Assembly (NCBI GenBank): GCA_902588585.1
Contig: CACIPQ010000004.1
Coordinates: 1-64,000 of the forward strand
DNA length: 64,000 nt
DNA from: an uncultured Pelagibacteraceae bacterium
GTDB lineage: Bacteria > Pseudomonadota > Alphaproteobacteria > Pelagibacterales > Pelagibacteraceae
Direction: 5' to 3'
Below the pieces are notes generated by a model. It did no database searches, had not been told where the DNA came from, and saw only the letters and a program-made list of their open reading frames with translations. A program made the translations under genes and the position numbers. Positions within the stretch are counted from its first letter, which is position 1. The number at the start of each line of letters is the position of its first letter. Shown here one piece after another: positions 45,184 to 49,011 of this stretch.

Positions 45184-46242
45184 TTAAAAGCAAACTAAAT
45201 GATCAACATAAATTGGTGTTTTAATTCCAAACTTATCCTTGATCTTATGTTGATGTTCGTGATGAGAATGAACAAATACTGGTATAGTTTGATTTCCTTT
45301 TGTTTTAAGTGTGTAAATAAAATTTGTTCCTCTAAATTTTCTATCTACTACCTCCAATATCAAATTGCTTTTATCATCATGCTCTAAATCTTCAGGTTGT
45401 ATTAAAAGTTTAACGGATGACCCAATAGATTGCTTTTTAACGAATTTACCTTTTATTGTACCCAATTCATGATTTTTTAAAGTGTCATTTCCTGTAACTT
45501 GAGCATCAATCAAGATTCCTCTATTTAGAAACTTAACAACATCAATGGAATTGGGATAATGATAAATATTATAAGGTATATCAAATTGTTTTAATGACTG
45601 ATCTAGTATAATTCCGCATTTGTCAGCCAAATAAAAAGCTTCGTATGAATCGTGTGTAACTACAATAGTTGTAATATTTAATTCTTTTAAAAGATCTTTT
45701 ATTCTTTTTTGTAATTCATCTTTTAAACTTTGGTCAATATTAGAAAATGGTTCATCCAATAAAAGGAGATCGGGTTTAGACATTAATGATCTAGCTAAAG
45801 AAACTCTTTGTGCTTCACCAGCACTTATTTCATGTGGGTATTTTTCTTTTAAATCCTCCAAGTGCAAAATCTTTATTAGATCATTGTCTGAATAACGAAA
45901 TTTTGAATTTTTATTTCTTTTAGAACCAATGTTTATATTGTCAAGCACATTGTAATGAGGAAATAATGAATTGTCCTGAAAACATAATGCTATATTTCTT
46001 TTTTCAGGTTCTAAATTATAATCTTCTGAAGAAATAGTTTTTCCTTTTAGTTTTATTTTTCCAGTTTGTAAATTTTGAAGACCGGCTATAGTTCTTAGCA
46101 TTGTTGTTTTACCAATTCCAGATGGTCCTAAAAGACAAACAATTTCACCTTCTTTTTTTATTGTTAATGAAACATTATTAACTTTGTTTTTTGTACTAGC
46201 AGCAAAAGTTGCATTATCAATTTCAAGAAAATTTGAGCTCAT
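45184..46242 (-). CDS. fbpC: Ferric iron ABC transporter, ATP-binding protein
   Basis: 352 residues: Walker A GPSGIGKTTMLRTIAG, Q-loop CFQDNSLFPHYNV, a signature reading ISAGEAQRVSLARSL (instead of LSGGQ), Walker B LLLDEPFSNID, H-loop VVTHDSYEA, and a C-terminal TOBE-like regulatory domain (about 240-352). The last cistron of fbpABC, 21 bases downstream of fbpB. Iron specificity follows from the binding protein and the Fur-like site, not from this subunit. Confidence 0.9.
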   Translation of the reverse strand: MSSNFLEIDNATFAASTKNKVNNVSLTIKKEGEIVCLLGPSGIGKTTMLRTIAGLQNLQTGKIKLKGKTISSEDYNLEPEKRNIALCFQDNSLFPHYNVLDNINIGSKRNKNSKFRYSDNDLIKILHLEDLKEKYPHEISAGEAQRVSLARSLMSKPDLLLLDEPFSNIDQSLKDELQKRIKDLLKELNITTIVVTHDSYEAFYLADKCGIILDQSLKQFDIPYNIYHYPNSIDVVKFLNRGILIDAQVTGNDTLKNHELGTIKGKFVKKQSIGSSVKLLIQPEDLEHDDKSNLILEVVDRKFRGTNFIYTLKTKGNQTIPVFVHSHHEHQHKIKDKFGIKTPIYVDHLVCF

Positions 46243-46263: not shown

Positions 46264-47880
46264 TTATTTGTCTGAAAGTATATATCTAGAGGCAAATAAT
46301 ATAAATAGGCTTGCCCACATTATTAAACATAACGAAGGAAATGCAGCTGCTTCTAATAGATCTTGAGCAGCATATGAATATGCTTTTGTTGCAAAGGTTT
46401 CAAAATTAAAAGGACGAAGTATCAATGTAATAGGAAGTTCTTTAATAATTTCTATTGCAATCAAAACACCAACAAGAAAAACACTACTTTTTAGATATGG
46501 CACATGTATCCTTGTAAATGTTTTAAACTTCGAGTACCCAAGTAGATAAGCGCTGTCATCAATTGATTGATTTATTTTTAAGTAGCCAGATCTAATTCCG
46601 TTAAATGACAATGAAAAAAATCTAACAAAGTAAGCAAGAACAAGTCCGATCACTGATCCAATAAATAAAGGCTTGAAGCTAGCAAAACCAAATGCTGAAG
46701 TAAAAGTATCGCTAAGCCAAGATATAAAGGTGATAAAAGCAACAGCTAATATAACTCCCGGTATTGCATATCCTGATATAGAAAAAGCAGATAAATAGTT
46801 TAACAATTTACTTTTAGATACCCTGTTCCCATAATTTGATAAAAAAGAAAATACGATGAGACAAACACTTGATAAAAAAACAAGTAAAAGCGTGTTAAAA
46901 TTAAGTGACCACAAATCAATATCTTGGAAATACTTTGGAAACTTTATTGTCCAATAACTCATTTGAAATACAGGAAACAGAAAACTACAAAAAAACAGCA
47001 TAGAACAAAAAGTAAAAGCTAACGCAGATTTTTTTCCTTTTAATTCAATTTTAGGAATACTTTTAAATCCTCTGGATGGTTGGTGATATTTAGCACTTTT
47101 TCTTGAATAATTTTCAATTATAAACAAAATTAAAATAAAAAATAATAGCATGAATGAAAGCTGATTTGCCGTAGAAAGATCATCAAAGGAAATCCAGGAA
47201 TTATATATTGCCGTTGTTAATGTAGAAATGCTAAAAAAAGATACTGTTCCAAAATCTGACACTGCTTCCATGGCTACTAAAGACAACCCTGCAACAATTG
47301 CTGGCCTTGCAGATGGTAAAATAATTTTAAAAAAACTACGTTTTGTAGAAAAGCCTAAATTTTTTCCAACTTCTATTAAATTATGTGATTGATATAAAAA
47401 AGATGCTCTTGTTAATACATAAACATAACCAAAAAGTGAAAATGATATTGAAAATATTGACCCAATAAGTCCATCAAATTTAGGTATGTATTGATTATAT
47501 TCTGAGTCTCCAAATAAAAAAGTTAATATTGAAAATGCAGTACCATAATTTTCAAAAAAGGCTGTTAACGAATAAGCGTATATATAACCTGGTACAGCAA
47601 AAGATAAAATTAAAGCCCATTTAAAAAAATTTACTCCAGTAAAATTATAGAAAGATACAAAATATGCTGATGTAACACCAAAAATGAAAGTTAAAAATAA
47701 AACACCTACTAAAATAAAAAATGAATTACTGATGTATTCTAGAAGAAATGTATTTTTTAATAACGTTAAATATTCGCTTCTTGTGTCAAAAAAACTAAAA
47801 AAAATTGTGATAATAGGTATAGCTACCAACAAAGGTACTATCAATGAACTAAAATACCAAAAATTTATTCTACTGTTCAA
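46264..47880 (-). CDS. fbpB: Ferric iron ABC transporter, permease (fused two-domain)
   Basis: 538 residues made of two tandem permease halves, each with about six spans and an EAA-type loop (VGKNLGFSTKRSFFKIILPSARP in the first, DSAYLLGYSKFKTFTRIHVPYL in the second), the SfuB/FbpB architecture. The start is TTG at 47880. It is supported by a strong Shine-Dalgarno AGGAGG (plus-strand CCTCCT at 47885-47890) 4 bases upstream, and no ATG sits at a suitable distance. That Shine-Dalgarno is part of an interlocked inverted-repeat element and can be paired with an upstream complement. Confidence 0.92.
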   Translation of the reverse strand: MNSRINFWYFSSLIVPLLVAIPIITIFFSFFDTRSEYLTLLKNTFLLEYISNSFFILVGVLFLTFIFGVTSAYFVSFYNFTGVNFFKWALILSFAVPGYIYAYSLTAFFENYGTAFSILTFLFGDSEYNQYIPKFDGLIGSIFSISFSLFGYVYVLTRASFLYQSHNLIEVGKNLGFSTKRSFFKIILPSARPAIVAGLSLVAMEAVSDFGTVSFFSISTLTTAIYNSWISFDDLSTANQLSFMLLFFILILFIIENYSRKSAKYHQPSRGFKSIPKIELKGKKSALAFTFCSMLFFCSFLFPVFQMSYWTIKFPKYFQDIDLWSLNFNTLLLVFLSSVCLIVFSFLSNYGNRVSKSKLLNYLSAFSISGYAIPGVILAVAFITFISWLSDTFTSAFGFASFKPLFIGSVIGLVLAYFVRFFSLSFNGIRSGYLKINQSIDDSAYLLGYSKFKTFTRIHVPYLKSSVFLVGVLIAIEIIKELPITLILRPFNFETFATKAYSYAAQDLLEAAAFPSLCLIMWASLFILFASRYILSDK

Positions 47881-47884
47881 CTCT

Positions 47885-47926
47885 CCTCCTCTAATTTAGT
47901 CCCCAGAGGAGGCCGGGGACTAAATT
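47885..47926 (-). promoter_or_regulatory. Interlocked inverted repeats overlapping the fbpB ribosome-binding site
   Basis: Transcript order on the minus strand: AATTTAGTCCCC, GG, CCTCCTCT, GGGGACTAAATT, AGAGGAGG, then AGAG and the TTG start. The 12-base arms pair perfectly with each other, and the 8-base CCTCCTCT pairs perfectly with the Shine-Dalgarno AGAGGAGG. The two pairings are interleaved. The 12-bp hairpin holds the anti-Shine-Dalgarno in its loop and leaves the real one exposed, while the alternative 8-bp hairpin buries it. No T-run follows, so it is not a simple terminator. Its GC richness stands out locally. Confidence 0.7.
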
Positions 47927-47937
47927 GTTCTTGTATG

Positions 47938-48954
47938 TTAATTCCAACCAGCTTCGGTCATTATTTTCAATGCCTTAGCTTGAAGTTTACCATACGAAGA
48001 AACTTTTGTTTTAAGATCTTGTTTGAAACCTAAACCAAACTGAGAAATTAATTTATTTGGTTCAACTCCATCAATCATAGAGTATTCAAACGTATTGTTA
48101 ACAATGTGCTTTTGCGCTTCTGGAGTTAATAAAAACTCAAGAAGTTTAATAGCATTAGCTTTGTTTGGAGCATGTTTTAAAATTCCTCCACCGCTAATAT
48201 TCATGTGCGTTCCTCTTCCATCCTGATTAGGAAAGAAAGGTTTCACTTTTTTTGCCGCCGCTTGTTGTTCTGGACCTTTTTTTCCAGATAACATTAAAGC
48301 AATGTAATATGTATTAGCAACAGCCCAATCTGCTTCACCTGCTGCAACTGCTAAAATTTGTGCTCTATCATTTCCTTTTGCTTTTCTTGCAAAGTTAGAT
48401 ACCAAACCTTTTGCCCATGTTTCAGTATTTTTTGCTCCATTATTTTTGATTAAAGAAGCAACTAATGACTGATTATAAACATTGTTAGACTGTCTAATAA
48501 CAACTCTGCCTTTGTATTTAGGATCGGCTAAATCTTCATAAGTCATGTTCCATGAAGGATTTACAGTTTTTGGATTGTAATAAATTACACGAGCTCTTTT
48601 AGCTATACCTGTCCAATATGCACTTCTAAAATTAGCTGGGACAACTTTTTTAATTCCAGCAGAACTTGCTCCTTTTTGAAACATTCCTTGTGATTGAAAA
48701 GCGCCAAGTCTTCCTGCATCAGCAGTAATATAAAGATCACCTTTGCAATCTTTCCCTTCTTCCTTAATTCTTTTTTGTAAGGCTTTGTCTTTTCCAGATA
48801 CAATATTTACTTTAATTCCCGTTTTTGCTGTGAATTTTTTGTAAAGCTGAACATCTGAATCGTAATGTCTTGCGCTAAAAATATTTACTTCCTGCGCCAT
48901 TACAGAGGTAGAAATAAATAATAAGCCCAAAATGCTTAGTACTAGTTTTTTCAT
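47938..48954 (-). CDS. fbpA: Ferric iron ABC transporter, periplasmic binding protein
   Basis: The ORF track starts at 49038, but the upstream 28 codons run over the promoter; the real start is ATG 48954 (MKKLVLSILGLL), preceded by AAGGA, giving 338 residues. Signal peptide to SVMA (about 20), then FutA/FbpA features: FSARHYDSD with the iron-ligand Tyr, YITADAGRLGAFQ, KRARVIYYNPKTV, and the Tyr pair in VANTYYIALMLSG. It binds Fe3+ in the periplasm and delivers it to FbpB. A Fur-like site lies within its promoter. Confidence 0.93.
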   Translation of the reverse strand: MKKLVLSILGLLFISTSVMAQEVNIFSARHYDSDVQLYKKFTAKTGIKVNIVSGKDKALQKRIKEEGKDCKGDLYITADAGRLGAFQSQGMFQKGASSAGIKKVVPANFRSAYWTGIAKRARVIYYNPKTVNPSWNMTYEDLADPKYKGRVVIRQSNNVYNQSLVASLIKNNGAKNTETWAKGLVSNFARKAKGNDRAQILAVAAGEADWAVANTYYIALMLSGKKGPEQQAAAKKVKPFFPNQDGRGTHMNISGGGILKHAPNKANAIKLLEFLLTPEAQKHIVNNTFEYSMIDGVEPNKLISQFGLGFKQDLKTKVSSYGKLQAKALKIMTEAGWN

Positions 48955-48982: not shown

Positions 48983-49011
48983 CTTATATTGATAATGATT
49001 ATCAATTTCAA
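48983..49011 (-). promoter_or_regulatory. Promoter of fbpABC
   Basis: On the minus strand TTGAAA (49006-49011), a spacer of exactly 17 bases and TATAAG (48983-48988), each 5/6 to the sigma-70 consensus. The start point would be near 48976, about 22 bases before the fbpA ATG. The entire spacer is the Fur-like palindrome. Confidence 0.7.
48988..49006. promoter_or_regulatory. Fur-like operator
   Basis: ATTGATAATGATTATCAAT is a perfect 9-1-9 palindrome and contains TGATAAT-N-ATTATCA, the 7-1-7 core of classical Fur boxes. It fills the -35/-10 spacer of fbpA, an ideal repression site for an iron-bound Fur or related (Mur/Irr-class) regulator. The regulator gene is not in the window. Confidence 0.8.

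Follow-up and report, generated by a model that had tools for sequence, protein, structure and literature searches.

SAM-V, a simple pseudoknot, typically lies no more than 10 nt from the start codon in SAR11 bacteria (PMC2704228, PMC6061858). Like SAM-V and SAM-II, which occur in SAR11 and its relatives, the element described here is a small RNA by a start codon and a candidate H-type pseudoknot regulating translation. It was found in a stretch of 64,000 nucleotides from an uncultured Pelagibacteraceae bacterium (the window). In contrast to SAM-II and SAM-V, it is placed within an operon, with a transporter gene on either side, and its second helix consists of Shine-Dalgarno (SD)/anti-SD repeats; no Rfam riboswitch matched it at or near the gathering threshold. 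Pairing of an upstream anti-SD with the SD is also found in the aapA3 toxin mRNA of H. pylori, where CUCCU was called a perfect anti-SD and where competing hairpins and the order of transcription decide on SD access (PMC6733600). However, the anti-SD hairpins of aapA3 exist only transiently on the way to a long-range lock, while in the window a stable hairpin of a transporter operon carries the anti-SD as its loop. The malE-malF hairpins occupy the same type of site, a stable hairpin between the genes for an ABC binding protein and its permease. In ABC operons of E. coli it is without exception the binding-protein gene that is stabilised, and stabilisation by a hairpin is common for such segments (PMC5927463). 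Hairpins of the malE-malF type act on 3'-end decay, whereas the hairpin of the window abuts an SD to which its loop is complementary. A CCUCCU mimic of the 16S tail within a structured RNA, bound by bS21, is known from P6 of the OLE RNA, which is, however, a long non-coding RNA for which that study reports no cis-acting control over a start codon (PMC12054373). Finally, potC (RF01751) is a marine candidate cis-regulatory RNA, which in one of the loci compared here (L138:2425-2491) lies immediately upstream of fbpB. It differs from our element in its structure and in its loop UUACCCC, and its covariance model found no match in the window.

The same transporter was investigated in another SAR11 strain, Ca. 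P. ubique HTCC1062. Under iron limitation the mRNAs of sfuC, sfuB and sfuA reached 16x, 10x and 5x, respectively, and the SfuC protein was up 27-fold, while SfuB had not been detected in any mass-spectrometry study to that date (PMC2864753). Published data on Ca. P. ubique had already suggested that iron limitation brings post-transcriptional control into play, with no RNA identified (PMC2864753). In a survey of Ca. P. ubique from 2009, the region singled out was the one upstream of sfuC and not the junction between sfuC and sfuB (PMC2704228).

The operon of the window is encoded on the minus strand (Table 1). An internal ATG from the listing of open reading frames was taken as the start of fbpA, with the protein beginning MKKLVLS; it belongs to the SBP_bac families, and phmmer aligned it with the solved iron-binding proteins 2pt1 (2.8e-95) and 1q35 FbpA (8.8e-56). 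Upstream of fbpA a perfect odd palindrome, TTGATAATGATTATCAA, is present at 48989-49005, which we take to resemble a 6-1-6 Fur box; iron control is probably exerted also at the fbpA promoter via this Fur-box-like sequence. The 57 nt between the fbpA stop and the fbpB start read CATACAAGAAC-AATTTAGTCCCC-GG-CCTCCTCT-GGGGACTAAATT-AGAGGAGG-AGAG, followed by TTG. An earlier note on this DNA had described two perfect, interleaved inverted repeats here, and both the 12-nt repeat B/B' and the 8-nt repeat A/A' were confirmed on the minus strand (47926..47881). Its assignment of A' as the SD of fbpB likewise held; 4 nt (AGAG) separate A' from the TTG. The 16S tail GATCACCTCCTTT was found in 23 of 31 genomes of the genus; it was not found in the window's own genome, where it is probably missing from the draft.

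Table 1. Features of the fbpABC operon and of the fbpA-fbpB intergenic element (positions in the window).
Feature	Position	Strand	Remarks
fbpA (sfuC-type periplasmic Fe(III)-binding protein)	47938..48954	-	operon gene 1; 338 aa
fbpA stop codon	47940-47938	-	TAA
Linker	47927..47937	-	CATACAAGAAC; 11 nt, from fbpA stop to hairpin foot
Arm B	47915..47926	-	AATTTAGTCCCC; 5' hairpin arm, 12 nt; AU-rich foot AAUUUA, GC-rich top GUCCCC
GG plus arm A	47905..47914	-	together CCUCCUCU; GG 47914-47913, arm A (CCTCCTCT) 47912-47905
Arm B'	47893..47904	-	GGGGACTAAATT; 3' hairpin arm, 12 nt
Arm A'	47885..47892	-	AGAGGAGG; 8 nt, SD of fbpB
Extended SD	47883..47892	-	AGAGGAGGAG
Spacer between A' and TTG	47881..47884	-	AGAG
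fbpB start codon	47880-47878	-	TTG
fbpB/sfuB (iron ABC permease)	46264..47880	-	operon gene 2; 538 aa, TTG start
fbpC/sfuA-type (ABC ATPase)	45184..46242	-	operon gene 3

In the predicted fold the pairing of B with B' reaches 14 pairs, as GG also pairs with CU, and a hexaloop CCUCCU remains. This 14-bp hairpin is the best fold (-20.6 kcal/mol), leaves the SD free and directly adjoins it, and the invariant CUCCU of its loop is an anti-SD. The folding z-score was about -2.3, with 3 and 5 of 200 shuffles folding equally well. How far such an architecture exceeds chance was estimated for the window as a whole. Nine inverted repeats with arms of at least 10 nt were present, among which this element had the longest match between loop and flank (8 nt); 0.08 cases with arms of at least 10 and a loop match of at least 8 were expected per Markov-resampled window. 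Taken alone, the site is therefore only moderately improbable, but across relatives, where conservation decides, the element is not due to chance.

fbpB was traced in 60 relatives and 80 named public contigs. The element is carried by 21 species of the window's genus, always in one copy between fbpA and fbpB, with the consensus TTTAGTCCCyGGnCTCCTCyGGGGACTAAATT-(1-2 nt)-AGGAGGAG-(2 nt)-TTG. A pattern search in 397 genomes of the family gave 20 copies, one per genome and all in a single genus; the 21st carrier (L009) was missed by this search as it is without one G of the stem. With a covariance model run over 397 genomes of the order, all strong matches (70-81 bits) were this element. Matches of 22-27 bits appeared in other genera, and the 4 that were inspected resemble ordinary coding sequence containing GGAGGAGAATTG-like or similar strings. 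In the fbpB tree the element-bearing FbpB form one clade with a support of 1.0. The element is absent from 5 further loci of the same genus (L004, L023-L026), and the more distant fbpAB loci are without both pairings. Homologous loci lacking one of the pairings had been named earlier as evidence against a switch; as both pairings are absent together outside the clade, we read this as lineage specificity and not as refutation. Rfam contained no match to the element above threshold, and the weak hits to mir-7957 and to the Na+ riboswitch (13 bits) were attributed to chance. In a pattern search of 31 genomes the combination CTCCTC..GAGGAG (6+6, 4-34 nt apart) occurred at this site in every element-bearing genome and at only 3 other places. 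An SD-like string precedes fbpB in only one of 33 sampled relatives without the element (L127). Since the fbpB of such relatives is nearly always without an SD, the SD and the anti-SD loop probably arose together in a single event.

Changes were mapped onto the fbpB tree of the 21 loci, with 139 fourfold sites of fbpB as reference (mean 3.3 changes, 3.6% unchanged). No change was found in the 6 columns of the loop CTCCTC, in the 8 columns of the SD AGGAGGAG, in GG or in the start codon TTG, which every one of the 21 loci with the element keeps; 7 changes fell in the two stem arms combined. At fourfold sites the window and the other subclade show an identity of only about 0.48, which argues that the element is held by selection, and loop, SD and TTG start were shown by these counts to be under strong purifying selection. 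The loop is not conserved for the sake of the hairpin; its obvious partner is the SD. Twelve distinct element sequences were obtained, and all of them keep both pairings, with a stem of 12-14 bp. The register common to all variants, CUCCUC[C/U]/GGAGGAG (in the window GGAGGAG 47889-47883 with loop 47911-47905), forms 7 bp in 12 of 12. One pair of the window's own A/A' register is lost in L028, and the stem of L014 contains a C-A mismatch. Stem changes are mostly one-sided, with a G-U pair retained on the mRNA strand. Compensatory changes had been proposed earlier as a check on the switch. Among the 12 sequences no stem pair was changed on both sides, and A/A' showed one double change per register, which is not above shuffles; the SD is itself constrained by the 16S rRNA. 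Covariation is thus not usable as proof because conservation is too high, and within the clade the check speaks neither for nor against a switch.

According to the fold predictions the SD is open in the hairpin state with a probability of 0.86-0.99. With B blocked this falls to 0.00, all of the SD being paired with A, which speaks for the proposal that B/B' frees the SD while A/A' hides it. A/A' alone is 2.6-10 kcal/mol weaker than the B/B' hairpin. B' is moreover transcribed before A', and B/B' is complete before A' exists. Being weaker and later in transcription, A/A' alone is not the equal alternative state that the earlier note had seen in it, and it needs B to be blocked. The further claim that the two pairings cannot easily coexist was too strong; they may partly coexist, as the AU-rich lower stem could unzip and act as a linker. 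The result would be an H-type pseudoknot, for which most variants allow an upper stem S1 of 6-8 bp, L1 of 2-3 nt, a loop-SD helix S2 of 7-8 bp and L3 of 6-8 nt. Pseudoknots were scored by our own enumeration with simple loop-length rules of our own. With a generic penalty, whose error is several kcal/mol, the pseudoknot of each of the 12 variants differed from its hairpin by no more than 2 kcal/mol, and under the strict loop rule by no more than about 3 kcal/mol. The open hairpin and the SD-closed pseudoknot are thus of comparable predicted stability.

We infer the following mechanism. The element may be a cis-acting RNA of the fbpABC mRNA that controls the translation of FbpB relative to FbpA by exchange between hairpin and pseudoknot, a proposal to which we give about an even chance of being right. 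The GC-rich upper stem would form first and persist. With the AU-rich foot zipped the SD would stay open and FbpB would be made; upon unzipping of the foot the loop would capture the SD in the H-type pseudoknot and hide it. Given the close predicted energies, the element would set a restrained rate of FbpB initiation, and the balance could be biased by translation, by temperature, or by a protein or small molecule acting on the conserved stem or loop. The weak, invariant TTG and the unusually strong SD fit a design in which access to the SD decides. When a ribosome terminates on fbpA, its footprint should extend some 10 nt beyond the stop codon. Such a ribosome need not open the hairpin, because the linkers measure 11 nt in the window and 14-15 nt in the other subclade. 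In addition, the hairpin may protect the 3' end of the fbpA mRNA, as in malE-malF.

This last function could also be the only one. In that case the hairpin alone would matter, giving more binding protein than permease through differential decay of the malE-malF kind, and the anti-SD loop would be incidental or serve another role. A stable intergenic hairpin marks the 3' end of the binding-protein gene in ABC operons of E. coli (PMC5927463), and the iron-limited mRNA gradient sfuC > sfuB > sfuA of HTCC1062 (PMC2864753) as well as further inverted repeats at the fbpA-fbpB junction of several SAR11 lineages (L023, L025, L107, L094) agree with it; so does the hairpin's predicted stability of -16 to -22 kcal/mol across the 12 variants at a site between binding-protein and permease genes. 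However, a protector needs no invariant CUCCU in its loop, where the six loop columns are unchanged and the neighbouring first loop base (N) changed 3 times. It leaves the strong SD found only at element-bearing loci unexplained, and the stem sequence is conserved, without compensatory change, beyond what protection requires. We therefore regard protection as the sole function as possible but rather unlikely. Conserved stem and pyrimidine loop might instead form a site for a cold-shock protein, for bS21 or for another reader of anti-SD mimics, which on binding would expose or mask the SD. Had the loop been conserved as a protein site, the picture of conservation would be the same as for an anti-SD loop, and here the stem is conserved in sequence as well as in pairing. 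In Ca. P. ubique the levels of CspE and CspL follow iron, and an action on mRNA structure was proposed for them (PMC2864753), and the CCUCCU mimic of OLE RNA binds bS21 (PMC12054373). A single site per genome is, however, unlike the target of a global regulator, and we consider a protein site improbable.

Equally improbable is the version of the earlier note, in which the A/A' and the B/B' hairpin are two exclusive states. Both pairings are conserved, the SD is fully sequestered when B is blocked, and in L014 a longer fold already prefers A/A'. The stability and early completion of B/B' stand against it, and with linkers of 11-15 nt a terminating ribosome should not block B. Of the two-state switch the element itself, both pairings, the loop and the SD are conserved, while the exclusivity and the equal A/A' state did not hold. 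A function at the DNA level, as operator palindrome, intrinsic terminator or mobile repeat, is very improbable, even though a perfect, locally GC-rich inverted repeat stands in an AT-rich genome. After the hairpin come AGAGGAGGAGAG on the mRNA strand and GTTCTTGTATG on the other strand, with no U-run on either, and an intrinsic terminator was rejected. A mobile repeat was dismissed as each genome has one copy and none elsewhere, and a phage origin as viral contigs gave no match. Furthermore, by our reading the one-sided stem changes give G-U on the mRNA strand 6 times versus 2 on the other strand, which is not favoured by a DNA palindrome.

Structured RNAs unrelated to this element were observed at the same junction in other SAR11 lineages. 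Besides the potC of L138, sub-threshold potC relatives occur in L121 and L131 (both 2425-2487), and potC lies further upstream within the fbpA-fbpB interval in L094 (1723-1787), L100 (1719-1783) and L110 (1716-1780). An unnamed covarying RNA was found by pattern search directly before fbpB in at least 13 loci of another SAR11 genus, g4 (L112 (2388-2502), L082, L088, L091, L095, L097, L098, L114, L115, L120, L125, L130 and L132). It consists of the palindrome TTTGACGTCAA followed by a stem TCTCTGGC../..GCCAGAGA, with conserved AAATGC and AAGCCGCTTTA; compensatory changes were seen at 4 base pairs, it is single copy where found, and Rfam gave no match in L112 or L088. In L083, L093, L079 and L081 the last ~75 nt before fbpB contain a hairpin with the loop UUACCC, whose complement GGGUAA is the start of fbpB (ATGGGTAA), possibly a second loop-to-start pairing of independent origin. 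A small apparent open reading frame with a C-x-P-C motif (for example GCAPCLKE or GCSPCMRE) is located between fbpA and fbpB in many relatives (L071, L073, L074, L076, L084, L086, L105 and L128). L107, from an unrelated lineage, has a very strong inverted repeat AATATTAGAGGA..TCCTCTAATAT about 45 nt before fbpB (folding z -4.8). At L138:5185-5270, about 1 kb downstream of the fbpB match, a sub-threshold match to the TPP riboswitch was noted (41 bits, gathering 54).

Overall, the original observation was confirmed and its interpretation as a switch is partly supported, the mechanism being our inference. Judged from sequence comparison, the element is best described as a new genus-restricted case of SD-sequestering cis-regulatory RNAs, and it probably sets the amount of iron permease made. 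A bolder reading, which we consider a long shot, is that the element, about 45 nt long, acts as a miniature sensor RNA of a previously undescribed H-type pseudoknot class. Its near-invariant stem and loop would recognise a metabolite, a metal or a protein that signals the iron status, the anti-SD loop serving as output; if so, translation of the permease would be tuned independently of the binding protein encoded in the same operon. SAR11 bacteria, whose cells rank among the most numerous in the ocean, possess very few regulatory proteins and often face iron limitation. For them the element would be a short, defined RNA at a point where the levels of binding protein and permease must diverge, and the fbpA-fbpB boundary appears as a hot spot at which different SAR11 lineages placed different structured RNAs.
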